From NCBI RefSeq assembly GCF_030373245.1, contig NZ_JAUCZF010000005.1, forward strand, positions 124,001 through 188,000: a stretch of DNA of 64,000 bases, read 5' to 3'. The number at the start of each line of letters is the position of its first letter. The stretch's first letter is position 1. The translations under genes were made by a program, and so were the position numbers. The stretch comes from Hydrogenophaga sp. (GTDB taxonomy: Bacteria > Pseudomonadota > Gammaproteobacteria > Burkholderiales > Burkholderiaceae_C). Under the pieces are notes generated by a model. The model was not told where the DNA came from, did not search any database, and worked only from the letters and a program-made list of their open reading frames with translations. Positions 6,334-20,791 of this stretch are shown here, piece by piece.

Positions 6334-7587
6334 ATGTACCAGCACATCAAAGTGCCCGCTGAAGGCCACAAGATCACCGTCAATGCCGACATGTCGCTCA
6401 ACGTGCCCGATCATCCCATCGTGCCGTACATCGAGGGCGATGGCACGGGCTTTGACATCACCCCGGTGATGCTCAAGGTGGTGGATGCGGCCGTGGCCAA
6501 GGCCTATGGCGGTCAGAAGAAAATCCACTGGATGGAGGTTTACGCTGGCGAAAAATCGACCCAGGTCTACGGCCCTGACGTGTGGCTGCCGGAAGAAACG
6601 CTGGCTGCGCTGCGCGAGTTCGTGGTGTCCATCAAAGGCCCATTGACCACACCGGTCGGTGGCGGTATCCGTTCACTCAACGTCGCGTTGCGCCAGGAGC
6701 TCGACCTCTACGTCTGCCTGCGCCCGGTGCAGTACTTCAAGGGCGTACCTTCCCCGGTCAAAGAGCCAGAGAAGACCAACATGGTGATTTTCCGAGAGAA
6801 CTCGGAAGACATCTATGCTGGTATCGAGTACGAAGCCGAGTCTGACAAGGCCAAGAAGCTCATCAAGTTTCTGCAAGACGAGATGGGCGTGACCAAGATC
6901 CGTTTTCCCAACACCTCGGGCATCGGCATCAAGCCGGTCAGCCGCGAGGGCACAGAGCGCCTGGTGCGCAAGGCGATCCAGTACGCGATCGACAACAACA
7001 AGCCCAGCGTGACCATCGTGCACAAGGGCAACATCATGAAGTACACCGAAGGCGGCTTCCGCGACTGGGCCTACGCCCTGGCGCAAAAGGAGTTCGGCGC
7101 CGAGCTGATCGACGGCGGCCCCTGGTGCAAGTTCAAGAACCCCAAATCTGGCAAGGACATCACGGTCAAGGACAGCATTGCCGACGCCTTCCTGCAGCAA
7201 ATCCTTTTGCGCCCGGCCGAGTACTCCGTGGTGGCCACTCTGAACCTCAATGGTGACTACATTTCCGACGCTCTGGCAGCCCAGGTGGGTGGCATCGGCA
7301 TCGCCCCAGGTGCCAATTTGTCGGACAACGTGGCCTGTTTTGAAGCCACGCACGGTACGGCGCCCAAGTATGCGGGCAAGGACTATGTGAATCCCGGCTC
7401 GGAAATTCTGTCGGCCGAAATGATGCTGCGCCACATGGGCTGGACCGAAGCGGCCGACCTCATCATCAGTTCGCTGGAGAAAGCCATCCTGTCCAAGAAG
7501 GTCACTTACGACTTCGCTCGCCTCATGGACGGCGCGACCCAGGTCAGCTGTTCGGGGTTTGGCCAGGTGATGATCGAAAACATGTAA
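6334..7587 (+). CDS. icd: Dimeric NADP-dependent isocitrate dehydrogenase
   Basis: Homodimeric isocitrate dehydrogenase of the TCA cycle, 417 residues. The isocitrate-binding segment ([20 protein letters not shown], around residues 149-168) contains the regulatory serine position used by IDH kinase/phosphatase in enterobacteria. The Mg-binding Asp cluster ([40 protein letters not shown]) and the NADP region ([20 protein letters not shown]) are intact. The ATG at 6334 gives the standard N-terminus [11 protein letters not shown]. The gene ends VMIENM-stop, and those last codons are repeated near 20200. I read this as integration of a mobile element into the icd 3' end, so the extreme 3' codons here may derive from the element. 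Confidence 0.97.
7567..7585 (+). other. Putative attL: 3' end of icd shared with 20197-20213
   Basis: The stretch GTGATGATCGA at 7567-7577 followed by AAACATGT recurs at 20197-20213 as the same 11 bases followed by ACATGT, two A residues shorter. It encodes the last residues of icd (VMIENM). The integrase gene starts 170 bases further on. Integration into the icd 3' end is an established site for lambdoid elements in enterobacteria (e14, phage 21). The assignment here is my inference. Confidence 0.6.
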
Positions 7588-7634
7588 CTTTGTTCCAGGA
7601 CGTCCCAAGACGTCCCTCAAGGTTTCAGAAAAAG

Positions 7635-7665
7635 ACCCCATTGCTTTGATTCAATGGGGTTTTTT
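7635..7665 (+). terminator. Intrinsic terminator downstream of icd
   Basis: ACCCCATTG pairs with CAATGGGGT around the loop CTTTGATT and runs into TTTTTT. It lies 48 bases after the icd stop. In the island model it was brought in by the element, and the original terminator is at 20261-20300. Confidence 0.85.
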
Positions 7666-7709
7666 GTTTCAAGATGTCCGGCATCGTTTCTTGACTTCCA
7701 ACGGCAACA

Positions 7710-7739
7710 GGGCCATATTCGGGGCCATCATGGGGCCAT
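7710..7739 (+). repeat. Three spaced GGGCCAT repeats before the integrase gene
   Basis: GGGCCAT occurs at 7710-7716, GGGGCCAT at 7721-7728 and GGGGCCAT at 7732-7739, about one helical turn apart and 20 bases before the integrase start. Short direct repeats here are typical of arm-type integrase sites or operator repeats. A related pair (GGGGCCAT, GGGGCCAC) sits at 20119-20138 near the right end of the island. Confidence 0.5.
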
Positions 7740-7760
7740 GGCTTAGGCCAAGTCATCAAA

Positions 7761-8984
7761 ATGCGCCACGTCAACTACTCCCTAAAACCCGCGACGATCG
7801 ACAACGCGAAGTCGCGTGAGAAAGCCTACGCGCTGACCGACGGGGGCGGCTTGCAGATTGAAATCCTGCCGTCCGGCGGCAAGACCTGGCGCTTCAAGTA
7901 CCACCTGAATGGCAAGCGTGAAAAGGTCACGATTGGTGCCTACCCGGCCTTCACCATCAAGCAGGCCCGCGACCGCCACGAAGAACTGCGCGCGTTGGTC
8001 GCCCGTGGCCAGAGTCCAGCGAAGGCAAAGCGGGCGGCAGCGACCGAACAGAAACTTGTCGAAGCTCGCCGGTTGACTTTCCGAAGCTTTGCGCAGCGCT
8101 GGGTGGACGAGACACTTTTTTACCGGTCTGGCGGCTATGTGGCTCAGACCGTGCGCTGGCTGGATGCCTATGTCTACCCGGCTATTGGCGACATGCCGCT
8201 GGACGAAGTTCTGCCTCGCGACGTGCTGGCCATCATCAAGGCGCGCGCCGACACCGCCGTGACCGCGGAGCGCATCCGCGTGATCGTTCAGCAGATCTAC
8301 AACCATGCGATCCGCAACCTACTGGTGACGACGAACCCGGCACAGCCGCTGCGTGGCGCCATCGCCCGCGCACCGGTGGAACATCACCGGCATCTCAGCG
8401 AAAAGGAACTGGCGGCGTTTTGGCGCAAGCTCGAAGACCAGGGCGCGCATTTCACAACGATTTCGGCGACCCGGTTGCTGATGCTCACGATGACGCGCAA
8501 GAGCGAATTGCTGCGCTCGAAGTGGCCCGAGTTCGATCTGGACGCCGCTCAGTGGGACATTCCGGCAGAGCGCATGAAGATGGGCAAGGCGCACCGCGTG
8601 TTTTTGTCGCGCCAGGCCGTTGACATCCTGAGGCAGGTGCACGAGTTCACTGGCCATGGGCAGTACGTGTTCCCGTCAATCTTTCGTGGCAGCGTGCCCA
8701 TTGGAGACGTGACCTTGAACCACTTCTTCAAGCGCATGGACTTCGGTGTGTCCGACTTCAGCCCCCACGGCACGCGAGGCACAGCAGCGACCCTATTGCG
8801 CGAACACGGTTTCGGCCGGGATGTGGTCGAACTGCTGCTTGCCCACAGCGAGAAGAACGCCACTGTGGCGGCGTACAGCCACATGGAACTGGCCGCGGAT
8901 CGGAAGAGGGCGCTGCAATTTCTCGCTGATCGTATCGAACAGCTTGTGGCAGTCGGCAACGTGGTCACCTTGCGCGCGGCCTGA
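7761..8984 (+). CDS. Tyrosine-type integrase with DUF4102 arm-binding domain
   Basis: Site-specific recombinase of 407 residues. Residues 1-100 form the DUF4102 arm-binding domain common in P4-like and genomic-island integrases (LTDGGGLQIEILPSGGKTWR, KREKVTIGAYPAFTIKQARD). A SAM-like core-binding region follows, then the catalytic domain. The catalytic set can be placed: Arg246 (MTRKSELL), His336 and Arg339 (SPHGTRGTAATLL), His362 (LLLAHSEKN) and Tyr372 (AAYSHMEL). All are present, so the enzyme looks intact. It is the first gene after icd and points into the island. With the duplicated icd 3' end at 20197 it probably catalysed the insertion. No tRNA target is visible next to it. Confidence 0.95.
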   Translation: MRHVNYSLKPATIDNAKSREKAYALTDGGGLQIEILPSGGKTWRFKYHLNGKREKVTIGAYPAFTIKQARDRHEELRALVARGQSPAKAKRAAATEQKLVEARRLTFRSFAQRWVDETLFYRSGGYVAQTVRWLDAYVYPAIGDMPLDEVLPRDVLAIIKARADTAVTAERIRVIVQQIYNHAIRNLLVTTNPAQPLRGAIARAPVEHHRHLSEKELAAFWRKLEDQGAHFTTISATRLLMLTMTRKSELLRSKWPEFDLDAAQWDIPAERMKMGKAHRVFLSRQAVDILRQVHEFTGHGQYVFPSIFRGSVPIGDVTLNHFFKRMDFGVSDFSPHGTRGTAATLLREHGFGRDVVELLLAHSEKNATVAAYSHMELAADRKRALQFLADRIEQLVAVGNVVTLRAA

Positions 8985-9121
8985 GTTCGGATGCGTTGCA
9001 GATGCCTGCGCCCGCATCCCGAATTCATGAAGAAAGTTGGAACAGTGCTCAACCTGCAGACACTGCTGTTGACCTTGCACAGAGGCTCGCGAAGGCGAGC
9101 GCCGGTGACCAGATGGCGATT

Positions 9122-9721
9122 TCATGGGTGGATCCTTCGGTTGCCGGGCCGGTTGCGGCCCCTTGGTTCTGCGGTGGCGGGGCGGCGCGGCTGCAGGTCA
9201 GCAAGCGTGCTGGAAGCGAGGTCGAGGTGCTGGCGCACATCGCGCGCCAGGGTGTCGAGCATCAACCGCAGCAGCCTGGAGGACTCGCCTTCGCTCCGAC
9301 GCAGCAGCGTGCTCAGCAGGTGGAGGTTGCGGCTGAAGGTGGCCAGTTCTGCGGTGGATTCATTCAAGACAGCGATGTGCTCTATCCGGCTGGCACCGCC
9401 TGTCAACACGGGCACGTGGGCCACCAGACCGGCCAGGTAGGCGCCGCGCGACAGGCCAGCGGCTCGGGCACCAGCAGCCAGCTGACCTGCCTCCATAGCG
9501 GTCATACGGATCGACAGCTTGACGCTGACAGCGTGCCCAGCCCCTTGGGGCGCCTCCACGCTCTTGGGCGCACCCTCCACCACCGAAAGACCCAGATCGC
9601 GCGCCACAGCGCTGCGCACCAACTCCGACACGCTGACCCGTTGCGCCTGCGCGCGGGCCACCAGCGCGGCCTTCAAGCCGCGCATTTCAACCGAGACGAA
9701 GTCGTGTGTTGACGTGTTCAT
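9122..9721 (-). CDS. MobC-like relaxosome accessory protein (relaxase missing downstream)
   Basis: Protein of 199 residues. The N-terminal segment (FVSVEMRGLKAALVARAQAQ, RVSVSELVRSAVARDLGL) looks like a ribbon-helix-helix DNA-binding motif. A second such block (VSVKLSIRMTAMEAGQLAAG, ARAAGLSRGAYLAGLVAHVP) resembles MobC-type mobilisation proteins, and the C-terminal helices (NLHLLSTLLRRSEGESSRLL) fit that family. In mobilisable elements a relaxase gene normally follows with a short overlap, and an ATG does overlap the stop here. The downstream frame is short and has no relaxase features before the convergent integrase gene ends at 8984. I infer a truncated mobilisation module. The family call is by pattern only and could be another RHH regulator. 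Confidence 0.55.
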   Translation of the reverse strand: MNTSTHDFVSVEMRGLKAALVARAQAQRVSVSELVRSAVARDLGLSVVEGAPKSVEAPQGAGHAVSVKLSIRMTAMEAGQLAAGARAAGLSRGAYLAGLVAHVPVLTGGASRIEHIAVLNESTAELATFSRNLHLLSTLLRRSEGESSRLLRLMLDTLARDVRQHLDLASSTLADLQPRRPATAEPRGRNRPGNRRIHP

Positions 9722-9828
9722 GGACCGACGAATGGAGGGGCGCGGAGCGCTTGTGAAACTGGCGGCAGGCCGCCTATCTCTGCACTCACCATGAACCCAG
9801 TATTGGTCTGAATCGAGGCTCTGCAGAC

Positions 9829-9852
9829 GCTGGATTTGGGCCCATATCCAGC
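9829..9852. repeat. Inverted repeat upstream of the mobC-like gene
   Basis: GCTGGAT (9829-9835) and ATCCAGC (9846-9852) form a perfect 7-base inverted repeat with a 10-base spacer, about 110 bases upstream of the mobC-like start. An oriT commonly carries such a repeat next to the nick site, but no relaxase-specific nick consensus is recognised here. Confidence 0.4.
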
Positions 9853-9913
9853 CCGGAACATGGCCTTTGGGGCGGCTAAGATCGTTTCAATCCCTGGGCA
9901 CCCTCGGCTCAAA

Positions 9914-9971
9914 TGCACAAACTGAACCACCAGTGAACACAGACTGCACAAACCGAACAGCAAGTGAACCG
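9914..9971 (+). repeat. Two 27-base direct repeats with a 31-base period (GAAC-rich)
   Basis: The copies at 9914-9940 and 9945-9971 both have TGCACAAAC-GAAC-C-AGTGAAC with a few substitutions. Further GAAC words follow at about 9986 and 10001. They fill the 355-base gap between the divergent mobC-like and abiEi genes, which otherwise has no coding frame. Iterated words of this sort serve as protein-binding sites in replication or transfer origins. Confidence 0.55.
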
Positions 9972-10036
9972 TTACCGCATAAGAACTGAACAGAGAGGCT
10001 GAACCGAATACCTGAGTTTGTTTCTTTATTTAGTTA

Positions 10037-10068
10037 TTTGTTGACAAATGACTAGACATTACAACAAA
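10037..10068. promoter_or_regulatory. Putative AbiEi operator and -35 element
   Basis: An interrupted inverted repeat reads TTTGTTG-ACA-AATG on the left and CATT-A-CAACAAA on the right, separated by ACTAGA, in an AT-rich patch ending nine bases before the abiEi start. A perfect TTGACA (10041-10046) lies in the left arm. I see no good -10 at the right spacing. AbiEi antitoxins are known to autorepress through inverted repeats, and this position fits. Confidence 0.45.
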
Positions 10069-10076
10069 CTGCATGA

Positions 10077-10694
10077 ATGGTCCAAGGCAAAAACCCAACG
10101 AGGGAACACGCCGTGCTCGCTCTGGCAGAGCGCCAGCCTCTTCTGCGCGCACGCGACCTGACCGCGCAGGCACTGCCGACTGTGGTGCTCAGCAGGCTGG
10201 TCGCCGCGGGCAAGCTGGAACGTGTGGCACGCGGCGTCTACAGCCTGCCGGGGCGTGCACTCAGTGAACACCGGTCCCTGGCCGAAGTGGCACTGCGGGT
10301 GCCGCGTGGTGTCGTGTGCCTGCTGTCGGCGCTGCGCGTCCATGGCATCGGCACCCAGGCGCCGTTCGAGGTCTGGCTGGCGATCCCTCCGCACACACCT
10401 ACACCCCGACTGGACCAGCCGGCGCTGCGTGTGGTGCGCATGTCGGGACTGGCTCTCTCCGAAGGCGTTGAACCCATCGACATTGATGGCGTGCCAGTTC
10501 CGGTGTTCAACGCCAACAAGACGGTGGCCGACTGCTTCAAGTACCGCAACAAGATCGGCCTGGACGTGGCGCTGGAGGCGCTGCGAGATGGCTGGGCACA
10601 GCGCAAGCTGAACATGGATGCGCTATGGCACTACGCCGCGGTCAACCGAGTGGCCAATGTGATGCGGCCCTACCTGGAAAGTGTCACGGCATGA
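10077..10694 (+). CDS. abiEi: AbiEi-family antitoxin / transcriptional repressor (type IV TA system)
   Basis: Antitoxin of the AbiE type IV toxin-antitoxin and phage-abortive-infection family, 205 residues. The N-terminal winged-helix domain (LARDLTAQALPTVVLSRLVAAG-like region, then KLERVARGVYSLPGRALSEH) is the DNA-binding part that represses the operon. The AbiEi C-terminal domain contains VVCLLSALRVHGIGTQAPFE and the conserved PVPVFNANKTVADCFKYRNK. The start is the ATG at 10077 (a GTG/ATG choice upstream is not supported). The toxin gene follows with a four-base ATGA overlap, so the pair is translationally coupled. An inverted repeat just upstream is a plausible operator. Confidence 0.9.
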   Translation: MVQGKNPTREHAVLALAERQPLLRARDLTAQALPTVVLSRLVAAGKLERVARGVYSLPGRALSEHRSLAEVALRVPRGVVCLLSALRVHGIGTQAPFEVWLAIPPHTPTPRLDQPALRVVRMSGLALSEGVEPIDIDGVPVPVFNANKTVADCFKYRNKIGLDVALEALRDGWAQRKLNMDALWHYAAVNRVANVMRPYLESVTA

Positions 10695-11539
10695 GCCGCA
10701 ACCTGGCCGCCTCCATCCGCGCCCGCTTGAAGCAACGTGCCGATGCCAGGAAGCAGGACTTCAATCTGACCCTCACCCACTATGGGCTGGAGCGCTTGCT
10801 GTATCGCCTGTCGATCTCACCCCATGCCGACAATTACCTGCTCAAGGGTGCGCTGCTGTTTTCGCTGTGGTACGACCAGCCACACCGGCCGACGCGCGAC
10901 GCGGACCTGCTGGGCTTTGGACCGGACGACATTGACACTGCCGTTGCAGTTTTCCGTGAAATCTGTGTGATGGAGGTGGAAGACGGCATCGCGTTCGACA
11001 CCGCATCCGTCAAGGGCTCGGTGATCCGCAAGGAGGCGGGCTATGGCGGTGTGCGGATCGACCTGCTGGCGAAGCTGGACGGCGCTCGCATCACGCTGCA
11101 GGTGGACATCGGATTTGGCGATGCGGTCACACCCGCGCCCGAATTGGTGAGCTACCCGGTGTTGCTTGAAGACCTGCCAGCACCGCAATTGCGCTCGTAC
11201 CCGAAATACACCGTGGTAGCCGAGAAGTTCCATGCAGTGTGCTTGCTCGGCATGGCCAACACCCGGATGAAGGACTATTTCGATCTGTGGGTGCTGCTCA
11301 CAGAGAGTGCCCTGGAACCGACAGAGCTGCGCCGCGCGATCGACGCCACCTTTGCCCGGCGGCAACTTCAAGTGCCGGACACCACACCTTCTGGCTTGAG
11401 CGATGTATTCGCACGGGATGCCGTGAAGACAGCGCAATGGACCGCGTTCCTGAAAAAGAACCGGCTGGCTGCCCTGGATCTGGTGGATGTGGTCACCCTG
11501 CTGCGCGATGAGTTTCAGAAGCTGCAAAAGCAAGGCTGA
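10691..11539 (+). CDS. abiEii: AbiEii-family nucleotidyltransferase toxin (type IV TA system)
   Basis: Toxin partner of AbiEi, 282 residues, a member of the AbiEii/AbiGii nucleotidyltransferase family (formerly DUF1814). The polymerase-beta-like active site is visible as NYLLKGALLFSLWYDQPHRP then TRDADLLGFGPDD, giving the KGA...R-T-x-D-x-D pattern; AGYGGVRIDLLAKLDG and KYTVVAEKFHAVCLLGMANT follow, the latter with the conserved Lys/Glu motif, and RMKDYFDLWVLL closes the domain. All expected motifs are intact, so the system appears functional. Start ATG 10691 overlaps the antitoxin stop. Related toxins transfer nucleotides to tRNA or other acceptors. The exact substrate here is unknown. Confidence 0.9.
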   Translation: MSRNLAASIRARLKQRADARKQDFNLTLTHYGLERLLYRLSISPHADNYLLKGALLFSLWYDQPHRPTRDADLLGFGPDDIDTAVAVFREICVMEVEDGIAFDTASVKGSVIRKEAGYGGVRIDLLAKLDGARITLQVDIGFGDAVTPAPELVSYPVLLEDLPAPQLRSYPKYTVVAEKFHAVCLLGMANTRMKDYFDLWVLLTESALEPTELRRAIDATFARRQLQVPDTTPSGLSDVFARDAVKTAQWTAFLKKNRLAALDLVDVVTLLRDEFQKLQKQG

Positions 11540-11585
11540 AAGGCTTGGTGGTACCTCAAACTTCAGACCAGAGAAATCTGAGGTT

Positions 11586-11765
11586 TCATGCGCCTTCCAG
11601 CCCATGATGTGAACGACGTGACAGCGACAACGGCAACACCGGGTCCAACCGATCCAGTGCCTGAACCGCCGTTTTCTCATCGACGCTGAACACCACCGCG
11701 TTTCCGGGGCGGTTCAAATGATCGGTCACGATGCCGAAATCACCGGTCACGTTGGTCCGAAAATG
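11586..11765 (-). pseudogene. Fragment of an IS630-family transposase
   Basis: On the minus strand an in-frame stretch of about 60 codons reads DFGIVTDHLNRPGNAVVFSV, then DEKTAVQALDRLDPVLPLS. The NPP-NAVVLCVDEK and QALDRTQP-LPL signature is characteristic of the catalytic core of IS630/Tc1-like transposases, including one catalytic Asp. Both flanks are gone: upstream it abuts the AhpD-like gene and downstream it ends in RRSHHGLEGA-stop. No terminal repeats are visible. It is a decayed relic. Confidence 0.7.
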
Positions 11766-11773
11766 CCCAGCAA

Positions 11774-12352
11774 TCAACGCCCCATGCTGTAGAACTCGTC
11801 GTTCGGCCGCATGCTGGTGACATTGGCCATGCGGTTGGACAATCCGAAGAAGGCCGCGATGCCGGCAATGTCCCAGATGTCATCCATGTCGAAGCCGTGC
11901 TGCCGCAATGTCTCGAAGTCGGCGTCATTCACCGCCCAGGCTTGCGCAGAGACCTTCATCGCGAAGTCCAGCATGGCCATCTGGCGAGGCGTGATGTCGG
12001 CCTTGCGGTAGTTCACCGCCACCTGGTCGGCCACCAGCGGGTTCTTGGCGCGAATGCGCAGGATGGCGCCATGCGCCACCACGCAGTACTGGCACTGGTT
12101 GGCGTTGCTGGTGGCCACCACGATCATCTCGCGCTCGGCCTTGGTGAGATTGCCCTTCTTGTCCATCAGGGAGTCGTGGTAGGCGAAGAATGCACGGAAT
12201 TCGTCGGGCCGGTGCGCAAGCACGAGGAACACATTGGGCACGAAGCCCGACTTCTCCTGCACGGCCAGGATGCGCGTGCGGATGTCCTCGGGCAGGTCGT
12301 GGATCTCAGGTACCGGGAAGCGGCTGATCGGGAAGGCGGCTGTGGTCGACAT
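11774..12352 (-). CDS. AhpD-like peroxidase-related enzyme (carboxymuconolactone decarboxylase fold)
   Basis: 192-residue protein of the CMD/AhpD superfamily. The redox motif is QCQYCVVAHGA, a CxxC pair with the downstream His in the usual place, preceded by the helix TKAEREMIVVATSNAN. The N-terminal PEDIRTRILAVQEKSGFVPN and later ITPRQMAMLDFAMKV blocks are typical of the peroxidase-related subgroup. It is the third gene of a minus-strand set with a TetR regulator and an AcuI-like reductase (gap 53 bases), which suggests a role in a reactive electrophile or peroxide response. Substrate unknown. The C-terminus lies directly next to an IS630 fragment but the gene itself looks complete. Confidence 0.88.
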   Translation of the reverse strand: MSTTAAFPISRFPVPEIHDLPEDIRTRILAVQEKSGFVPNVFLVLAHRPDEFRAFFAYHDSLMDKKGNLTKAEREMIVVATSNANQCQYCVVAHGAILRIRAKNPLVADQVAVNYRKADITPRQMAMLDFAMKVSAQAWAVNDADFETLRQHGFDMDDIWDIAGIAAFFGLSNRMANVTSMRPNDEFYSMGR

Positions 12353-12405
12353 GGTGGCTCCTTAAGCGTTGTTCAGGACAGGGAAGAATGGTGTGAGCTG
12401 AGGGC

Positions 12406-13392
12406 CTACGGCGCGTCGACTCGCACGACAACTCGGCCACGGACATGGCCTTCGAGCAGATCCGCAGCGACGCCGATGGCGTCGTCCAGATCAATCTCAC
12501 GGATCAGGCGCTCGAGCAGATCGTGGTCGAGGTCTTGTGCCAGCCGGCGCCAGGCTTGCAAGCGCTCGTCGACGGGTGCCATCACGCTGTCGATGCCGGC
12601 CAGGGTGACGCCCCGCAGGATGAACGGTGCCACGCTGGCGGGCCAGGACATCCCGGCCGCCAGGCCGCAGGCCGTGACCACACCGCGGTAGCGCATGGCC
12701 GCACAGACGTTGGCCAGCAATTGGCCGCCAGCGACATCCACGGCGCCAGCCCAGCGCTCCTTGTCCAGCGGCTTGCCGGGTTTGGACAACTCGGCGCGGT
12801 CGATGATCTGGCGGGCGCCCAGCGCGCTCAGGAAGTCGGCCTCCTGTGGCCGGCCCGTTACGGCGGCCACCTCATAGCCCAGTTTGGAGAGCATCGCCAC
12901 CGCCACGCTGCCCACGCCACCCGCGGCACCGGTCACGACCACTGGGCCTTGGTCCGGCGTCACGCCATGGCGCTCCAGCGCCAGCACACACAATGCGGCC
13001 GTGTAGCCAGCAGTGCCGATACCCATCGCCTGGCGCAGCGTGAAGGGCGACTGCAGCGGGATGAGCCACTTCCCCGGCACGCGCGCGCGCTCGGCCAGCC
13101 CGCCCCAATGCACCTCGCCCACGCCCCAGCCATTGAGCACCACCGGGTCTCCAATGGCAAAAGCCGGGTCGGCCGATGCCTCGACGGTGCCCGCAAAGTC
13201 GATGCCCGGCACCATCGGGAACCGGCGCACCACGGGCGAGCGGCCGGTGATGGCCAGCGCGTCCTTGTAGTTCAGCGTCGACCAGGCCACTCGCACGGTG
13301 ACCTCGCCCTCGGGAAGAGATGATTCAGACAACTGCTGCACGCTGGCTGTCTGCTGTCCGTCTTGCTTGTCGATGAGCAGGCCACGAAACAT
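12406..13392 (-). CDS. acuI: AcuI/YhdH-type zinc-independent quinone oxidoreductase (acryloyl-CoA reductase-like)
   Basis: 328-residue medium-chain dehydrogenase of the YhdH/AcuI branch, which lacks the zinc sites. The N-terminal GroES-like domain has [20 protein letters not shown] and [15 protein letters not shown]. The Rossmann motif is [20 protein letters not shown]. The characteristic [20 protein letters not shown] and [10 protein letters not shown] blocks are present. AcuI reduces acryloyl-CoA to propionyl-CoA with NADPH and protects against acrylate. The substrate here is inferred from family only. It follows the TetR gene by 40 bases on the same strand and precedes the AhpD-like gene. 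Confidence 0.88.
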
Positions 13393-13432
13393 GGGTGAGT
13401 CTCCTTTCGGGAGGTAGCGGGTGGTGGGGGGG

Positions 13433-14077
13433 TCAGGGGCCAGGGCTCAGCAGCGCAAAGAAGCCTTGTGCATAGACATCCAGCGCTTCGGGTGATCGCT
13501 CCAACTTGGCGCGCAGGACTGCACCTTCCCAGCCGATCCAGAAGAACTGGGCCAGGGCGGAACAGTCGAGTTGCGGCGGGATCTCTCCGGCCTGCTGTGC
13601 TTCAGCCAGGCAGCCCGCAGTGCGTGACTGCCAGTCGCGAAAGACCATCTGCAGCTGGACCCGGAAAGACTCTGGCAGCGTGCCCATCTCCTGCCCCAGG
13701 TTGCCCACCAGGCAGCCGCGCCGGAACCCATGGCGGGCCATGCCGGCCTTGGCATCCTCGATGAAGTGCCTCAGGCGCTGAAGTGGCGGGACGGGGACGC
13801 CCAGGAACCAGCGGTCCAGCTTGTGGGCGAAGTAGCTTGCATAGGCGTCGATCAACACCTGGCCAAAGGCTTCCTTGCTGTCGAAGTAATGATAGAAGGA
13901 GCCCTTGGGCACCTGCGCGATGCGAAGAATCTCGTCGATACCGACGGCCGAGTAACCCTTCTCGGTGAGGACCGCCACGCCTGTGCGCACCAAGAGCTCT
14001 CGCGTGTCCTGACGCGGCACGCTGGCGTCCCGCGGAGGTCGGCCGCGACGGCGGGGCAGCAAAGCAAGGTGGTTCAT
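13433..14077 (-). CDS. TetR-family transcriptional regulator (AcuR/NemR-like)
   Basis: A 214-residue TetR regulator. The N-terminal helix-turn-helix reads [20 protein letters not shown] with the usual SKEAF continuation, and a variable ligand-binding domain follows. The basic N-terminal arm [13 protein letters not shown] is typical of this branch. The ATG at 14077 has GAGGG at a good spacing, and an upstream in-frame TTG is less likely. It is the first gene of a three-gene minus-strand unit with AcuI- and AhpD-like proteins. Two palindromes in the promoter region match TetR operator architecture, so it is probably autoregulated and controls the reductase. By analogy with AcuR/NemR the inducer may be an electrophile such as acrylate. 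That is inference. Confidence 0.9.
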
Positions 14078-14091
14078 AGGGACCCTCAAAC

Positions 14092-14135
14092 AGACTGATC
14101 GGTCTAATTATAGACAAAAATAGACCGATCGTCTA
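14092..14135. promoter_or_regulatory. Twin TetR-type operators upstream of the tetR-acuI operon
   Basis: AGACTGATCGGTCT at 14092-14105 and TAGACCGATCGTCTA at 14121-14135 are both near-perfect palindromes with the shared half-site AGAC-GATC. Their centres are about 29 bases apart in an AT-rich patch, 15 bases upstream of the tetR start. TCTAATTATAGA between them is a further inverted repeat. The site lies where the regulator would repress its own operon. Confidence 0.75.
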
Positions 14136-14169
14136 TTTATTCGGATCTGGCCACGCCTGCCGCTGGCTC

Positions 14170-14472
14170 TCACCCCCGCGTGATGACCGAGGCGCCCTCG
14201 TGCACGGGGATCGCGGTGATCTCCAACTCCTTCAGGAAGGGCTCAGAACCGACCTTGGCGATGGCCGGCGAGGCCATGAAGGCATCCATGGACGCCTTGT
14301 CCTCCCAGATGTAGACACTGGCAAAGGTGCCCGTGTCGAAATCGGCCATCCAGGTCTTGCGGATCAGCCCGGGGACCTGGGCGATGGCCTCTGCATAAGG
14401 CTTCAGCCAGCGTTCCTGGTACTCGGTCTCGTTGAGGGTCAGGACGTAACGAAAAATCTGTGCGTATCTCAT
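14170..14472 (-). CDS. YdhR-like putative monooxygenase (dimeric alpha-beta barrel)
   Basis: 100-residue protein starting MRYAQIFRYVLTLNETEYQE, followed by QVPGLIRKTWMADFDTGTFA and SVYIWEDKASMDAFMASPA. This pattern fits the YdhR family of small dimeric ferredoxin-like-fold proteins, which are related to antibiotic-biosynthesis monooxygenases. The catalytic activity of the family is not well established. The frame is open further upstream, but the ATG at 14472 with AAAGGAA before it is the natural start. It is transcribed divergently from a LysR-type regulator with 109 bases between starts, and the palindrome in between suggests that the LysR protein controls it. Confidence 0.8.
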   Translation of the reverse strand: MRYAQIFRYVLTLNETEYQERWLKPYAEAIAQVPGLIRKTWMADFDTGTFASVYIWEDKASMDAFMASPAIAKVGSEPFLKELEITAIPVHEGASVITRG

Positions 14473-14556
14473 GGTCGTTCCTTTGAGGTGGCTGCCAGCA
14501 CATGCTGGTGCACCGAAGGTAAAGACTGAGGGCCGTAAAGACAACGCCTATACTTT

Positions 14557-14570
14557 CTATGAACGCATAG
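14557..14570. promoter_or_regulatory. LysR-type operator candidate
   Basis: CTATGAACGCATAG is a palindrome with a four-base centre and the T-N-A spacing often seen in LysR sites. It is 12 bases upstream of the lysR start in the divergent ydhR-lysR gap and is flanked by TATACTTT and GTATGTATA, themselves loosely symmetrical. Confidence 0.5.
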
Positions 14571-14581
14571 GTAAAAACTGT

Positions 14582-15487
14582 ATGTATAGCCTGACATCCC
14601 TGCGCTACGCAGAGGCCGCCGCCCGGCTGAAATCCTTCAGCGCCGCTGCCCGCGAGTGCGGCGTTTCGCAGCCGACGGTGTCCTCGTCCATTGCGGAGCT
14701 CGAAACGGAACTCGGCACGCCTTTGTTTGTCCGGGGCGGGCGGCAGCTCGAACTCTCGATTCCCGGCACCCGCTTGCTGCCCAAGATCGCCCAGGTCCTG
14801 GGCGCTGTCGAAGCTCTGGAGTCCGAGACCCGGGATCTCGCCTCCACGGCGCGCTCTGAACTTCGGATCGGCTTCACACCATTGGCTGGCGCCGGGCGGG
14901 TGGCGCTGTTGCTCGAACCGTTCAGGCGCCAGCATGCTGACGTGCGTTTGCTGTTCTTTGAATCGGGTGTGGTCGATCTCGAGCGCCGCCTGGACGCAGG
15001 TCAGCTGGATGTGATCGTTGGAAGCGGCTTTCGACGCCTGCGAACACGCAAGCGACTCAAACTCATGCAGGAACCCTTGATGGTGTGCTCCAAGGGGGTT
15101 GAATCGAACGCCATGGCCACCATTGGACTGGAGGCGACCAGCCAACACCGGCTTCTGTTCACCGAGGATCTCTGCGGGCTGGCCAGCGCCACGCGCACCC
15201 TGTTTGAAAACGCCCAACTGAAGGTGGACGCCTACCCAGGTCGTGCCATGAGTTATGGCGCGCTGGAGGATTGGGTTGAACTGGGTCTGGGGACCGCCGT
15301 GATCCCGAAGCATCACGTTCGAAACAGGGCGCAGGCGCGGCCGCTGGTGGGTGCAGATGGTGCGCCACTGTTTCTCGAGATGGAGGCCGTGTGGAAGTCG
15401 CCGCTGGCAGCTTCAGAGCATGCCGCAGCGTTTCTCACCTTTCTGCACCGGGTAGTGCCGAAACTGGCGAGTGGAATGGCTCAATGA
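14582..15487 (+). CDS. LysR-family transcriptional regulator
   Basis: 301-residue LysR regulator. The N-terminal winged helix-turn-helix is AAARLKSFSAAARECGVSQP, then TVSSSIAELETELGTPLFVR. The substrate-binding domain follows with typical landmarks (ELRIGFTPLAGAGRVALLLE, DVIVGSGFRRLRTRKRLKLM, ELGLGTAVIPKHHV). The HTH opens with SLRYAEAAARLKS, which resembles regulators of the OxyR/CbbR-like group. The chosen ATG gives the standard start just before the HTH; the frame extends upstream without family-like sequence. The divergent neighbour is the YdhR-like gene, its most likely target. Inducer unknown. Confidence 0.92.
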   Translation: MYSLTSLRYAEAAARLKSFSAAARECGVSQPTVSSSIAELETELGTPLFVRGGRQLELSIPGTRLLPKIAQVLGAVEALESETRDLASTARSELRIGFTPLAGAGRVALLLEPFRRQHADVRLLFFESGVVDLERRLDAGQLDVIVGSGFRRLRTRKRLKLMQEPLMVCSKGVESNAMATIGLEATSQHRLLFTEDLCGLASATRTLFENAQLKVDAYPGRAMSYGALEDWVELGLGTAVIPKHHVRNRAQARPLVGADGAPLFLEMEAVWKSPLAASEHAAAFLTFLHRVVPKLASGMAQ

Positions 15488-15558
15488 AGTCTGCAACTGT
15501 CCCTCGGTAGTCGAGGTCGCCAGCACGCCGACCACCTGCTGCAACTGGCTGTTGGGCG

Positions 15559-15951
15559 TCAATCAACTTGAGTACTGACCCACCACGTGGTGCCACCCGC
15601 ATCTGTGAAACCGCCGTGCCTGTCGGCATCGCTTTCCTGGACAGGCTGCTTCATGATCGTGGCTCCTGCAGCGACAGCCCGCTCGAAGACCGCCTCCACA
15701 TCGTTGGCGTAGATGTGCACGTGGCTTGGGGTGGCTGGTCACCCCTCCACTGCATCCGTGAGCATGGTCACCGTGTCGTCGATGCGCATCTCTGCGTGGG
15801 CAATCCTGCCGTCGCCACCTGGAATGACGCGCAGCGTCTGCGCATCAAACACCCTGATCAGGAAATCGATGGTGCCCTGAGCGCCGCTCACGGTGAGGTA
15901 AGGGGCAACCGATGTGTAGCCGGCGGGTTTGTGTACCGTGGGCCGAGGCAA
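15559..15951 (-). pseudogene. VOC/PhnB-like protein gene with an internal TGA
   Basis: From the ATG at 15951 the frame reads HKPAGYTSVAPYLTVSGAQG, TIDFLIRVFDAQTLRVIPGG and DGRIAHAEMRIDDTVTMLTD, which is the PhnB-like glyoxalase/VOC fold. It then hits a TGA after residue 70. Without any shift the same frame continues SHVHIYANDVEAVFERAVAA, GATIMKQPVQESDADRHGGF and TDAGGTTWWVSTQVD to a normal stop at 15559. The two halves together make a complete 130-codon VOC protein, so this is a nonsense-mutated gene. A few codons around the stop may also be deleted compared with relatives. Confidence 0.8.
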
Positions 15952-16013
15952 GCGACAGCGCAGGTGGAATGTGCGCGCCGCGCCACATCTCCATCGGCCA
16001 AAGACACTCAGTT

Positions 16014-17165
16014 TCAGTTCCGCAGTTTGCCGTCAGATGAGAGCACGCCGATCTCGAGGTACCGCGCGCCCTCGCGTCGCGCCTTGCTGAAGTCCAGCCG
16101 AATACCACCCAGGTCCAGCGTTCCCTGGCTTGCAAGTGCTGATGACACGGAAGCCCTTGTCGGGGTTCCTGGCACCCGGCGAATTGCAGCTATCAATACC
16201 TTCGCCGCCAGGAAGCCTTCAAGTCCATAAGCCGATGGTGCCCAGCCAGGATCGCCGTGCACCCGCAACGCTTCCAGATACTCGCTGACCAAGGGCAGGG
16301 CGACCTTGTAAGTCGGTGGAACAACCTGCAAGATTCCGACACCTCTCGAGAGTTCTTTCGGTAGGGCTTTGAGCAGGTGGTCCGCGCTGGTCGATGAACT
16401 GGTGGTCAGCATCGCGCCTCCACCTTGCTCTCTGTAGGAAGTGATGAACTTTGCAGCAGCTGCACCCGTGGCAAAGATGGCGATGGCCTGAGGCTTCCGT
16501 TCAAGCATGGTGGCAACGGCACCTTTCACATCTGTGGTCGCAGGCTGATAGGTTCCCGCTCCGACCAAGGTGAGCTTTCTGGAGGCGAGCGCTTGGGTGA
16601 CCTTTGCCAAGGCGTCGCGGCCAAAGGTGTCTTCCGGGTGGACCAGCGCCACGCGGTCAATGCCCAATGCTATGAAATGCGCAATGATGTGATTGGCCTC
16701 GTCCTCGACCCCGGGCCGGACGAAGTAAAGATGGGGACTCTTCAGCGCACGAACGCTGGTGGACCCTGTAAAGGCGCCAACAATGTTGAGGTCATTCGAT
16801 GCGAGCAGACCTTGACTGACCAGGTCACCGTTCTGGGACGAGCCAACCACGTTGATCAGGGCGACGATGGGTCTTTCCTTGTCGGCCAGCAACTCGGTAA
16901 CTGCACCCACCGTGCGCTTGGGATCGAAGCCATCGTCCTTGTCCAGCAGCTTCAGTGTCGAGCCGTTGATCCCGCCGTTCGCATTGACCTTACGCACCAA
17001 CAAGGACGCACCTCGGGTCAATGGAACGCCGACCGACGACGCCGGCCCCGTTAAAGGTGACACCTGCCCTACATATATCGGCTTCTTTGGGTCCTGTGCA
17101 GTGGCACCTGAGCCCAGCACGGCAAGCAGCGCGGCAATCCCGCATCTGACGAGCATCTTGAACAT
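16014..17165 (-). CDS. ABC-type branched-chain amino-acid-like substrate-binding protein (orphan)
   Basis: 383-residue periplasmic binding protein of the Leu/Ile/Val-type family (peripla_BP_6). A signal peptide is clear (MFKMLVRCGIAALLAVLGSG, cleavage after ATAQ). Family landmarks are PIYVGQVSPLTGPASSVGVP, TRGASLLVRKVNANGGINGS and LKLLDKDDGFDPKRTVGAVT. The ATG at 17165 has a strong GAGGAG site; upstream in-frame codons are ignored. No permease or ATPase genes lie nearby, so it is an orphan component, common in Comamonadaceae. It follows a LysR-type gene by 58 bases on the same strand and may be co-transcribed with it. Ligand unknown. Confidence 0.88.
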   Translation of the reverse strand: MFKMLVRCGIAALLAVLGSGATAQDPKKPIYVGQVSPLTGPASSVGVPLTRGASLLVRKVNANGGINGSTLKLLDKDDGFDPKRTVGAVTELLADKERPIVALINVVGSSQNGDLVSQGLLASNDLNIVGAFTGSTSVRALKSPHLYFVRPGVEDEANHIIAHFIALGIDRVALVHPEDTFGRDALAKVTQALASRKLTLVGAGTYQPATTDVKGAVATMLERKPQAIAIFATGAAAAKFITSYREQGGGAMLTTSSSTSADHLLKALPKELSRGVGILQVVPPTYKVALPLVSEYLEALRVHGDPGWAPSAYGLEGFLAAKVLIAAIRRVPGTPTRASVSSALASQGTLDLGGIRLDFSKARREGARYLEIGVLSSDGKLRN

Positions 17166-17223
17166 ACGTGTCTCCTCTTTGCAGTCAATCAGTCTGTGCA
17201 TCTTCCGAGACCGGAATTGACCC

Positions 17224-18156
17224 TCAGTGCGCCAGCGGTTTGCAGCCGCGCCACCGGCCTTGGTCGGCTTGCTCTCGGGCCAGTGTCACCATCAGGTCGA
17301 ACACCAACCCGGTCGCGGTGAGTTGAGGCTCGACCGGTGATATCGCCACCACGATTCGGCGGACCAAACGCGCGCCGGCCAAAGGCAAAAGCACAAGGTC
17401 TCCGGCAGCAACTTCATCCGCTACGCTGCATGCTGACAGCACAGCGCCGCCTAGCCCGGCTCGCGCCACGTGCGCCATCACCGTAAGAGAGTTGGCCTCG
17501 ACCAGCACCTTCGGAGCGAGACCGGCCTTGCGCAAGGCCTGCTCAACGATGGGCCGCACGCCAAACGGTGCACTGGGTATGGCCAGCGGCACCGTGGCCA
17601 GCCATTCCAGATCGATCTTCGATTCACGCGCCAGCGGGTGCCTTGCACTGACCGCCAGGAAGAGTTCCTCTTCGAAAACCGGCTGCCAACTCAGGCCGTC
17701 CAGGCCAGCGTCCTCGAAAAGCAGCGCCACCTGAAGTCGTCCTGATCGCAGACGGTCGGCCAGGGCGCCGCTTATCTCGTCGTGCAACTGCAGCGCCAGT
17801 CGCGGGTAAAGCGAGCGCGCTCTTTCGATCAGCGGGATGCACAGTGCCCGTGTCAGGCTCAGCGGGAAACCCACCGACAGCGTGCCGGTGGGCGAGTCAG
17901 CGGTTTGCGCCAGCGCAGCCTTGGCTTCGTCACCTAGACGCAGCATGGCTCGCGCGTAGCGAGCAAGCTCTTCGCCAGCGGGCGTCAGCGCGACACCGCG
18001 CCCGGTACGCAGCAGCAAAGCTTGACCGAACTCGGCCTCCATGTTGGCCACGTGTCGGCTTAGCGCCGACTGCGCGACATGCAACGACTCTGCGGCACGC
18101 GACACGCTGCCCAACTCAGCAATACGCAGAAAGTACTTGAACTGGCGCAGATCCAT
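17224..18156 (-). CDS. LysR-family transcriptional regulator
   Basis: 310-residue LysR regulator with an intact N-terminal HTH (MDLRQFKYFLRIAELGSVSR, AAESLHVAQSALSRHVANME) and the wing LRTGRGVALTPAGEELARYA. The effector domain shows LSVGFPLSLTRALCIPLIER and LQVALLFEDAGLDGLSWQPV. The N-terminus MDLRQFKYFL resembles Nac- and Cbl-type regulators. It is the first gene of a short minus-strand unit with the binding protein (gap 58 bases) and possibly the broken VOC gene further on. The most economical target is that downstream binding protein, but no operator was identified. Confidence 0.92.
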   Translation of the reverse strand: MDLRQFKYFLRIAELGSVSRAAESLHVAQSALSRHVANMEAEFGQALLLRTGRGVALTPAGEELARYARAMLRLGDEAKAALAQTADSPTGTLSVGFPLSLTRALCIPLIERARSLYPRLALQLHDEISGALADRLRSGRLQVALLFEDAGLDGLSWQPVFEEELFLAVSARHPLARESKIDLEWLATVPLAIPSAPFGVRPIVEQALRKAGLAPKVLVEANSLTVMAHVARAGLGGAVLSACSVADEVAAGDLVLLPLAGARLVRRIVVAISPVEPQLTATGLVFDLMVTLAREQADQGRWRGCKPLAH

Positions 18157-18240
18157 TTCGCAAGCTTACTTCTAGTCGCACTCCCGAGATATCTTGAGTT
18201 GCGATGCCGACAACGCACAAAGGCATCGAAGCTGACGTGA

Positions 18241-18510
18241 TTGGCCCTCCTTATCCGGGCTGACCCTGCGATACCACCATCGCCAATCGGCATTGGCACT
18301 TACAGGGCAGTTTCGGTAGATTTGCGACCTTTCTTGGGATGCAGTTTGGAGCCGTCAGCGCGTGTTCGAGGGACTGTTTCGCCCCTGCCGGTCAGGACCA
18401 AGGCCATGCTGCGCGATGCGGCCAACGAGCATATGGCAATGCTAGAGAAGTCACCCGAGCGGGTGATGACCTACTTCCAGGACCCAAGGTTCAAATATGC
18501 CGCCGGTTGA
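18241..18510 (+). other. Unrecognised short frame, possibly a gene relic
   Basis: In the 524-base gap between the lysR and AhpD-like genes a plus-strand frame of 89 codons ends KAMLRDAANEHMAMLEKSPE, then RVMTYFQDPRFKYAAG-stop. The second half looks protein-like (amphipathic, GC-rich third positions), while the first half does not. I do not recognise the family. It may be the 3' tail of a lost gene. The rest of the gap shows nothing I can name. Confidence 0.25.
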
Positions 18511-18680
18511 AACTTCAAGGGGCCGAAGCGATAGGTAGTCGTCCAGAGATCTGTCGCTATCCGTGCCTTTAGAATGCAGAGTCGTCTCCCTCAAGACCGG
18601 CATTCGCTTCACCACCCGCACGTCAGCTTTGTTACGCTGACGTATAGAGTCACGTGAGGACGAACAAGCAGAGCACAACC

Positions 18681-19091
18681 ATGGCATCGACACCTCAACT
18701 ATCCACTCCCGAAGACAACCCGCGCGTCAAAGCTGTGTTTGACGATATCCGAGCCACAAGAAGGACGGACTTCGTCAACAACATGTGGCGCGCTTTGGCG
18801 TTCGATCCCAGTTTATTGGAGAGCACGTGGTCCGAGGTCAAGCGCCTGATGGCCTCGGAGACCGCTCTCGACCCATTGACGAAAGAAATGATCTACATCG
18901 CAGTGTCGGTGGCCAATGGCTGCGGTTACTGCGTTCACTCCCACACAGCGGCTGCACGTGCAAAGGGAATGAACGATGCGCAACACGCTGAGCTCCTATC
19001 GATCATATCGCTGGCAGCAAAAACCAATCACTTGGCAACCGGTATGCAGGTCACCCTAGACCCCGTCTTCGATCTCAGCACCAAGAAGTGA
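18681..19091 (+). CDS. AhpD-like carboxymuconolactone decarboxylase family protein
   Basis: 136-residue single-domain CMD protein. The redox signature GCGYCVHSHTAAARAKGM has both cysteines and the His, after the family helix LTKEMIYIAVSVAN. The N-terminal part (NPRVKAVFDDIRATRRTDFV) and the DPSLLESTWSEVKRLM block fit the AhpD-like group. The ATG at 18681 follows AGCACAACC without a strong ribosome binding site; an in-frame codon at 18654 is less likely. It is an isolated gene in the island, on the plus strand, 43 bases before an IS5 fragment on the other strand. Function unknown beyond probable peroxide or electrophile chemistry. Confidence 0.82.
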   Translation: MASTPQLSTPEDNPRVKAVFDDIRATRRTDFVNNMWRALAFDPSLLESTWSEVKRLMASETALDPLTKEMIYIAVSVANGCGYCVHSHTAAARAKGMNDAQHAELLSIISLAAKTNHLATGMQVTLDPVFDLSTKK

Positions 19092-19133
19092 GTACCCCTA
19101 AGGGTGAGGCTCTCTGGCCGCTTGCAGGCGCAC

Positions 19134-19540
19134 TCATCCCCTTATCTCCTGCAACAAGGTTCGCCGCACCATCCATAGGTTGGAGAGTGCAAACAGCATG
19201 TGCAGTAGCGCCGTGTTCTTGGCCAGTCCTCAGAAGCGAACCTTCACATCTCCGAACTGGCGCTTGATCACCCGGAACGGGTGTTCGACCTTGCCGCGGA
19301 TACGCGCCTTGACCTGCTCCAGTCGCTCCGGAATCGCGCCCATCGGCGTGCTCTTGTCAAGCACTCGGCTCTTGCACGGCCGCATGGCCCCTGCCAGTTG
19401 ACTTCTATGTCCTGGGTATCTTCCCGCTTGCTCACGCTCTGGTAGCCCACGTCGGCAAAGGAATCGATTTCTTCTCCACGAACCAGCGTATATGTCTGCG
19501 CCATGTCGTTGACATTCGCCGCCGTGCCCAGGATCGCGCC
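19134..19540 (-). pseudogene. Remnant of an IS5-family transposase
   Basis: Minus-strand pieces read ILGTAANVNDMAQTYTLVRG and EEIDSFADVGYQSVSKREDT in one frame. A second frame has DKSTPMGAIPERLEQVKARI then RGKVEHPFRVIKRQFGDVKV. After a stop it continues GLAKNTALLHMLFALSNLWM. This is the C-terminal half of an IS5-type transposase (the KVEHPFRVIKxQFG and LFALSNLWM blocks are diagnostic), broken by a frameshift and an in-frame TGA. The N-terminal half is absent because the sequence passes into a DUF1016 fragment at about 19541. No inverted repeats were identified. Confidence 0.8.
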
Positions 19541-19888
19541 GTTTTCGGGCATGCCCTGCTGAAGCGGCTCTCGGTCGATTTGGCGAGACGTTTTGGCCAA
19601 GGGTTTTCCGAGCGCGATCTCGAACAGATGCGCCTTTTCTATATGGCATGGCCGCCGAAGGAAATATCGCAGACACCGTCTGCGATATTGGAAGCCTCCC
19701 AGGTTGAACAGGCGACTGGTGAGTCGACATCCGCACCGATCTCCGAATCTCTGCATCGGAAATCAGGGGCGCTACACGCCTTGACCCAGGTCTTCCCGCA
19801 GCCTTGGTCGGCCTATGTGCGCCTGCTATCCGTCAGGGCGCCACCGGCCCACAGTTTTTACGAAACCGAGGCACTGAGCGACGGCTGA
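19541..19888 (+). pseudogene. Fragment of a DUF1016 (YhcG-type PDDEXK nuclease) gene
   Basis: Plus-strand frame reads VFGHALLKRLSVDLARRFGQ, GFSERDLEQMRLFYMAWPPK, and later PWSAYVRLLSVRAPPAHSFY then ETEALSDG-stop. This matches the N-terminal domain of DUF1016/YhcG proteins (LLxxLSxDLxxRFGxGFSxxNLxxMRLFY, then PWSxYxxLLSVxxxxAR-FYExEAL-xGW). The TGA replaces the expected Trp of GWS. Both the 5' start and the nuclease domain are missing. The following 300 bases, including a 62-codon frame at 19892-20080, show nothing recognisable. Confidence 0.75.
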
Positions 19889-20196
19889 AGCTTGAGCCAG
19901 CATCGACAGCACGCCAGCACGACCGATGTACGGATCATCGACTTCGTCGATACAGGGCACCCTGCGTTGCTGCGCATGGGGGACAGGCGCTATCGTGGAT
20001 ACCGGGCGATGGGGTATCGAATAGGCACAGAATCCAGCAGCGACCTGGGAGAACTACCCCTCGATGAGACAATTGTGTGAGGCGTTCTGGTGAGCTTTCC
20101 ACCGGCAAGATGGGGGGCGGGGCCATGCCTGGGGCCACGTCGATGAACTGAAAATGGCGATCTTGCGCCGTTGCTGGCACTCCCGTCGATTGGGAA

Positions 20197-20213
20197 GTGA
20201 TGATCGAACATGT
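20197..20213 (+). other. Putative attR: copy of the icd 3' end
   Basis: GTGATGATCGA-ACATGT matches icd codons at 7567-7585 apart from two missing A residues. If those are restored, the sequence reads VMIENM followed by TGA, that is, a complete icd C-terminus with its own stop. A strong terminator lies 48 bases downstream, where the original icd terminator would be expected. Confidence 0.6.
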
Positions 20214-20260
20214 GATTTTCAACCCCGCTGCCGCCCACGCGCCGGGAGCGGGAAACGTGA

Positions 20261-20300
20261 AAAAACCGCCAGGAAGTTGGCTTCCTTGGCGGTTTTCTTT
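20261..20300. terminator. Strong hairpin terminator, probably the original icd terminator
   Basis: AAAACCGCCAGGAAG pairs with CTTCCTTGGCGGTTTT around TTGG (one bulge), flanked by A and T runs, so it could act in both directions. It separates the island from clpS. Confidence 0.85.
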
Positions 20301-20434
20301 TGTGAGAGCGAGCCACAATGGCCCATGAATTGCATTTGCTCCATCCGGGTCGCCCGGACCACCTGCGCGGTTTCGGAGCTAGGCGGAAGTCCATTCTCGG
20401 GCGCGGACCCGAGCGGACCGCTAGAATCATTTTC

Positions 20435-20791
20435 ATGGCGTCTCAGATCCCCAAAAAGCCCAACCAGCCGGTGGCTCCCCCCAGCATCGGCAGCGACGAC
20501 TCGGTCGTGCTCGAACGGCGCACCCAGCGCGTCAAGCCACCGCAGATGTTCCAGGTGGTCCTGCTCAATGACGATTTCACGCCGATGGAGTTCGTCGTTC
20601 ATGTGATCCAGGAATATTTCAGCAAGGACCGCGAAACAGCGACCCAGATCATGCTCAAGATCCACCTGGAAGGCAAAGGCATCTGCGGTGTCTACAGCCG
20701 CGATGTGGCCACCACCAAGGTGGACCAGGTCACCCAGGCGGCTCGCCAGGCCGGTCACCCGTTGCAGTGCTTGAGTGAACCAGTTGAATAA
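20435..20791 (+). CDS. clpS: ClpS adaptor for ClpAP protease
   Basis: Adaptor that delivers N-end-rule substrates to ClpA and blocks ClpA autodegradation. 118 residues with a proline-rich flexible N-terminus ([20 protein letters not shown]) and the conserved core [20 protein letters not shown], including the [10 protein letters not shown] motif that forms the N-degron pocket. [20 protein letters not shown] is the ClpA-contacting part. The ATG at 20435 gives the normal length. A TAGAAT hexamer lies seven bases upstream. clpA follows after 92 bases on the same strand, the usual arrangement. Confidence 0.96.

Follow-up and report, generated by a model that had tools for sequence, protein, structure and literature searches.

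What lies between icd and clpS in Hydrogenophaga sp., and how did it come to be there? In a 64,000-nucleotide stretch of this genome (contig NZ_JAUCZF010000005.1, positions 124,001 to 188,000 of the forward strand; hereafter the window), the two genes flank an island which we conclude, with high confidence, to be a 12.6-kb integrative element inserted into the 3′ end of icd by its own tyrosine integrase, its two short end repeats being attL and attR. The conclusion is drawn from both junctions, the repeats, the empty site in relatives and the common target of the integrase clade, all of which can be read in the sequence. The features of the two ends, by window position, are as follows:

6334–7587, plus strand: icd, isocitrate dehydrogenase; judging from the crossover position, its last codons, stop and terminator would now be supplied by the element
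7567–7577, plus strand: attL crossover block, GTGATGATCGA; its core ATGATCGA is exact in 31 of 33 icd-adjacent integrase loci, window included
7630–7665, plus strand: element-borne hairpin terminator that would replace the native one (−18.5 kcal/mol, z −3.6)
7691–7719, plus strand: putative integrase promoter, a weak match to the consensus only
7721–7738, plus strand: two GGGGCCA copies, which may be the integrase's left arm sites
7761–8984, plus strand: tyrosine integrase (Arm-DNA-bind_3, Phage_int_M, Phage_integrase), assigned from domain matches and alignment
20119–20137, plus strand: GGGGCCA pair 12 bp apart, at −81 and −69 from ATGATCGA, putative right arm sites
20185–20207, plus strand: right end of the element, GTCGATTGGGAAGTGATGATCGA, found unchanged in a related element (genome G091)
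20197–20213, plus strand: attR, host-derived from about 20208 and lacking two bases of the usual icd end
20257–20303, plus strand: native icd terminator hairpin (−23.5 kcal/mol, z −4.3)
20435–20791, plus strand: clpS, the right host flank

At the left junction, icd ends with GTGATGATCGA at 7567–7577, followed by AAACATGTAA, with the stop codon TAA at 7585–7587. The second copy of GTGATGATCGA stands at 20197–20207 and is followed by ACATGTGA, with two A's fewer than the icd end, then by a hairpin and then by clpS. These bases read exactly as a first-pass annotation, made from the sequence alone, had placed the two repeats (7567–7585 and 20197–20213), and the integrase open reading frame (ORF) likewise begins where it was said to, at 7761, 173 bases past the icd stop. 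Only these two plus-strand copies of ATGATCGA occur between icd and clpS. The hairpins behind the two copies each fold better than 199 of 200 shuffles; the one on the right is the strong terminator claimed at that place, and hairpins similar to the one on the left are seen by eye in the left ends of relatives.

The empty site was sought in relatives through clpS, which was detected in 57 of 60 genomes (counting that of the window); 30 loci were retained, the window's among them. Of the 29 other loci, 17 have icd 219–349 bp before clpS, and these are taken as empty sites. One exact ATGATCGA is present in 14 of them, none in three with a variant icd end (L019, L023, L024), and two in none, so the expectation of a single core at the empty site is borne out in that all 17 hold at most one. 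When the window's icd up to the block was joined by script to what follows the block in the right copy, the joined flanks aligned across the junction in one piece to seven of the 17 empty-site loci and gave a two-sided match in the other 10, while the match of the window's own left junction to these loci ends at or just behind the core. The icd 3′ sequence that an integration event should leave at the clpS flank is present, and the hairpin after it aligns with its counterpart in the empty-site relatives L007, L020 and L030; it is therefore read as the native icd terminator.

Among the remaining 12 relatives, element ends stand in front of clpS in G004 and G021, and in the other 10 icd is absent within 1.5 kb of clpS, with no sign of this integrase there. 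Four of these 10, all of the same genus (L113, L114, L115, L073), have icd and clpS separated by 1.9–13 kb of other DNA; each has a single core and no related integrase. Relatives carrying both copies and no integrase, which would have spoken against integration, were not found among the 17 empty-site loci and these four genomes. Of 67 same-genus genomes searched for the core pattern, 39 have a match, seven of them more than one. Two matches correspond to element ends in G000, G021 (on two contigs) and G081, and the extra matches in G001, G029, G063 and G088 are at other places or on other contigs. The left end in G004 was missed by the pattern because its stop is TAG.

Comparison of element ends also narrows the crossover. 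The first-pass annotation had proposed a 19-base core, which is too long because the bases to the right of ATGATCGA differ between both ends in G021, G081 and G100 (Simplicispira). The sequence common to attL and attR at the junction is only ATGATCGAT in G021, ATGATCGA in G081 and TCATGATCGA in G100; in the compared elements the common block is ATGATCGA plus a few bases at most, about 8–11 bp, with 11 in the window. At attL the bases that follow the block look as if they came from the element, as four loci of different hosts (L103, L104, L105, L107) have GATAACATGTAA there. At the attL of L157 and L158, Icd gains an extra C-terminal residue and ends in DAMN-stop or DSMN-stop.

We propose recombination by the integrase between GTGATGATCGA in an element attP and its counterpart among the last icd codons, which would serve as attB. 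Strand exchange would have fallen within about ATGATCGA, its exact position being deduced, and for this reason the left junction keeps the whole icd reading frame. The element would then provide the last Icd codons, the stop and a new terminator, and the native icd tail with its terminator would have been carried to the right end beside clpS. The integrase probably holds the ends through the GGGGCCA arm sites inside both of them, binding that we suppose from their sequence and position.

The integrase itself is uninterrupted, adjoins one end of the island, and has arm, central and catalytic domains. R246, H336, R339, H362 and Y372, to which we assign catalytic roles, are invariant in four aligned integrase sequences. 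At E ≤ 1e-100 the protein is found in four of 67 same-genus genomes, its own included, always directly 3′ of icd; those of G021, G004 and G081, each directly behind icd, are about 56% identical to it. A scan of named genomes gave 24 integrase loci, 21 of them directly behind icd and the closest 88% identical; among the sources of the 24 are Hydrogenophaga, Rubrivivax, Piscinibacter, Rhizobacter, Mitsuaria, Simplicispira, Xylophilus, Comamonas and Pusillimonas. At E ≤ 1e-110 the integrase was present in 16 of 399 genomes of a family sample and four of 399 of an order sample (own genome included in each). Of the 19 loci retrieved from these samples, 17 have it behind icd. Taken together, 33 of 36 distinct related integrases of Burkholderiales lie directly behind icd. 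The 36 derive from 45 rows (44 loci and the window) after nine were dropped for having a 200-base integrase stretch in common with another row, some of these from different genomes (L089, L105, L174). In L158 the integrase start, and in L162 the core, was set wrongly by the script, which makes the repeat counts of these two unreliable; their adjacency to icd was also seen separately. The window's integrase, lying 3′ of icd with the ATGATCGA block, thus belongs to an icd-directed clade, and integration at icd outside enterobacteria, which the annotation could only infer, proves wider than it supposed. When the island's DNA is compared with the 24 loci of relatives, which hold at most 6 kb behind the integrase, similarity is confined to 7591–8984 (the left end and the integrase); the cargo differs. 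No match to the integrase was found in the plasmid collection at E ≤ 1e-80.

Further similarities are found at both ends. At least two GGGGCCA repeats lie on the integrase side in 18 of 19 loci with an integrase at least 60% identical (window included), the single miss being L158 with its misplaced start. At the 17 loci with integrases less than 60% identical, GGGGCCA is found in three and GGAGCCA in six. A pair at 12-bp spacing is present in seven of nine element ends compared (GGGGCCA in three, GGAGCCA in four, one site being altered in G004). From what is known of tyrosine integrases, these repeats are best read as putative arm sites. On the right, the terminal 23 bases and the GGGGCCA sites at −81 and −69 are identical in the element of the Rubrivivax metagenome-assembled genome (MAG) G091, whose integrase is 88% identical.

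Several observations weigh against integration at icd, or against parts of the account given here. The exact block is absent from attL in L097 and L162, each with one base changed, and the right copy in the window lacks two A's, which may reflect a later neutral deletion. Three related integrases (L088, L093, L159) do not directly follow icd. In L088 and L159, whose left flanks are nearly identical to each other, the integrase nevertheless has the complete block before it, and in L093 only part of it is seen. Eight of the 17 loci with integrases less than 60% identical have neither repeat motif, and the pair is absent from two of the nine ends, namely the left flanks of L088 and L159. Neither icd nor clpS was found in the about 19.6 kb beyond the second core of G081. 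Neither a simple terminator scan of the region (9 found, 10.9 expected) nor a promoter scan (4 found, 2.2 expected; weak) rose clearly above shuffles. Finally, the source genome is a 10-contig assembly, 90.85% complete, with both island ends on one contig, and a single assembly cannot show an excised or circular form.

What kind of element is this? The interior holds the following features:

9122–9721, minus strand: NikA/ribbon-helix-helix-like protein, possible mobilization accessory (25.5 bits, cut-off 27)
10077–10694, plus strand: AbiEi antitoxin
10694–11539, plus strand: AbiEii nucleotidyltransferase toxin
11774–12352, minus strand: peroxidase-related, AhpD-like protein
12406–13392, minus strand: AcuI, acrylyl-CoA reductase (NF051456, 550 bits, cut-off 440)
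13433–14089, minus strand: AcuR, TetR-family regulator (NF051457, 311 bits, cut-off 247)
14170–14544, minus strand: ydhR/ABM mono-oxygenase-like protein
14471–15487, plus strand: LysR regulator, start uncertain, overlapping its neighbor
16014–17201, minus strand: periplasmic binding protein of ABC-transporter type
17224–18156, minus strand: LysR regulator
18654–19091, plus strand: carboxymuconolactone decarboxylase/AhpD-like protein
19108–19530, strand not assigned: probable insertion-sequence (IS) remnant, with an 81% DNA match inside the G081 and G021 elements and no Pfam match
19580–19888, plus strand: fragment of a DUF1016 gene

The first-pass annotation had called everything between the repeats accessory. 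This holds at the locus, where 17 of 29 relatives have icd 219–349 bp from clpS, and has to be qualified for the genus, where some of the cargo has relatives elsewhere. AcuI scores above the curated cut-off in 37 of 66 genus genomes, with a second copy in the island's own genome (G000:C1:38319-39311), and AbiEii is found in 22 of 66 at E ≤ 1e-30; genus matches to the periplasmic binding protein at E ≤ 1e-60 are only 36–37% identical. The only cargo that the island has in common with the same-genus elements is the probable IS remnant, whose translation, without a family match, is presumably a transposase, and a weak LysR similarity; a tblastx comparison with them gave mostly background and was not used.

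No relaxase, coupling protein or conjugation apparatus was recognized among the window ORFs scanned, and the island therefore is most likely non-autonomous and is not assigned to the Trb/Tn4371-like integrative and conjugative elements (ICEs). For a relaxase or oriT, the mark of an integrative and mobilizable element (IME), the ORFs scanned offer only the sub-cut-off NikA-like protein; no oriT search was made. This protein is 30% identical over 174 aa to one behind a related integrase in L098, and no relaxase was recognized beside its gene. Excisionase was likewise absent among the ORFs scanned, a set that mostly leaves out small ORFs in two gaps.

Some related elements are better equipped. 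In G081, where the integrase is 55–56% identical, 94 kb separate the two cores on one contig, and the nine proteins scanned include a coupling protein, TrbB-, TrbE-, CagX/TrbG- and TrbI-like proteins, ParB, a DUF3363 protein whose relaxase domain scores below cut-off and, near the right end, an AbiEii that has no match to that of the window in the island DNA comparison. ORFs similar to those of G081 are seen by eye in G021 and G004, and ParB is coded at L092 and L099. An ORF that we take to be homocitrate-synthase-like lies 6–7 kb beyond the second core of G081 (L112, G081:C38:212000-231999), possibly in another island. The resemblance to Tn4371-like and other Burkholderiales ICEs accordingly lies with the G081 element, through its Trb-type transfer genes, coupling protein and relaxase-like protein; the island differs in having no transfer gene among the ORFs scanned, and the att sequence given for Tn4371, TTTTTCAT (PMC9960961, in part), is not that of the island. 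Its small size and its own integrase are like those of IMEs, to which its relatives with relaxase or ParB also point, and the lack of a recognized relaxase in the window sets it apart from them.

It is in this respect that the strongest alternative arises, namely that the island is a complete, currently active IME that borrows a conjugation system from elsewhere. The uninterrupted integrase, the presence of both ends with their repeat sites, the NikA-like protein and the relaxase coded behind the related integrase at L088 (2.5e-12) are all consistent with such an element. We consider it unlikely, given that neither relaxase nor excisionase was found among the ORFs scanned, that the NikA-like match falls under its curated cut-off, and that the right end holds a probable IS remnant and a DUF1016 fragment. 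The island is probably a stripped, non-autonomous relative of mobilizable or conjugative elements, integrated at icd as described. AbiE is reported to stabilize an ICE in Streptococcus suis (PMC11062541, in part), which fits a maintenance role for AbiE on the island, and it may be that AbiE and the metabolic cargo keep the island in place.

A second alternative, a prophage or satellite relic like e14, is very improbable. Phage 21 reportedly has the 3′ end of icd as its target and supplies the replaced gene end. In Escherichia coli icd is described as a well-known prophage site (PMC10111431, in part), and e14 supplies the icd end there and leaves the icd tail at its far side (according to parts of PMC6379469). 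The island has the same target, the gene end supplied by the element and the icd tail at the far side, so the parallel drawn in the annotation stands for the target gene; it fails for the integrase. The e14 integrase, IntE, has no significant similarity to that of the island and carries Arm-DNA-bind_1 where the latter has Arm-DNA-bind_3, and parts of PMC6379469 place the e14 crossover about 163–165 bp inside icd (the icdC pseudogene being 165 bp), compared with the last 21 bp here. Because the e14 integrase is unrelated, the icd target was adopted independently. What else could favor a phage origin are phage matches to the integrase, all less than 60% identical and about 32–35% among the matches listed, and a contig of the viral collection that has a related integrase, again behind icd. 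Against it, no phage structural gene turned up in the ORFs that were scanned, with Pfam and NCBIfam (no search of the phage family library was made), and the related G081 element carries conjugation genes. The 23-base right end had no exact match in viral contigs. The island thus works like e14 and is not placed in the e14/phage 21 type of icd prophage.

The weakest alternative, that the repeat is a matter of chance and the icd–clpS interval a variable region filled by ordinary gene gain, could appeal to the 10 relatives without icd near clpS, to the 1.9–13 kb gaps in four of them and to the 11-mer alone turning up in 5 of 2000 first-order Markov simulations of 12.7 kb (which take no account of the position beside clpS or of the extra ACATGT), and is rejected as slimmer still on the grounds of those simulations, the core counts (a single core and no related integrase in those four genomes), the 23 bases and repeat sites preceding the right copy that are common to the end of a related element, and the joined-flank alignment, in which the sequence after that copy continues the icd–clpS interval of empty-site relatives.

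With integration by the element's own integrase as the preferred reading, icd emerges as a site at which mobile DNA outside enterobacteria docks time and again, reached through an unrelated integrase. We met no description of icd as an integration site in Burkholderiales among the papers listed from the open PMC literature, subscription papers lying outside that scope, which does not prove that none exists. Attachment to one conserved gene recalls the dusA integrases (PMC4482086, in part; likened by description only), from which the present clade differs in its target, the icd 3′ end, and in its occurrence in Burkholderiales. The site gives a convenient marker for finding the limits of islands and ICEs in Hydrogenophaga, Rhizobacter, Simplicispira and their kin, and the island offers a compact integrase/attB pair. 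As a tentative and rather speculative extension, a Burkholderiales-wide clade of integrases, which we take to be P4-like, may travel on ICEs, mobilizable elements and stripped islands and have become specialized for icd independently of e14; each integration would rewrite the last residues of Icd, its stop and its terminator, elements could stack in tandem, and integration and excision could tune icd expression.

Tandem stacking is suggested by two genomes. The Rubrivivax MAG G091 has a 56%-identical integrase behind icd on one contig; on a second contig, the 88%-identical integrase heads a 16.6-kb stretch between two cores, followed by sequence like the left end of the first element and by integrase pieces. 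G484 has two integrases, one of them behind icd. We interpret both as probable tandem arrays at icd. Across its loci L088, L149 and L150, G091 holds several element ends and, besides two integrases, pieces of a third.

Two minor observations concern the cargo. The adjacent acuI and acuR (12406–14089) point to acrylate detoxification. In G088, whose icd–clpS site is empty (L086), another contig carries an AbiEii 94% identical to that of the window with one in-frame TGA (L123, G088:C114:2721-3563).

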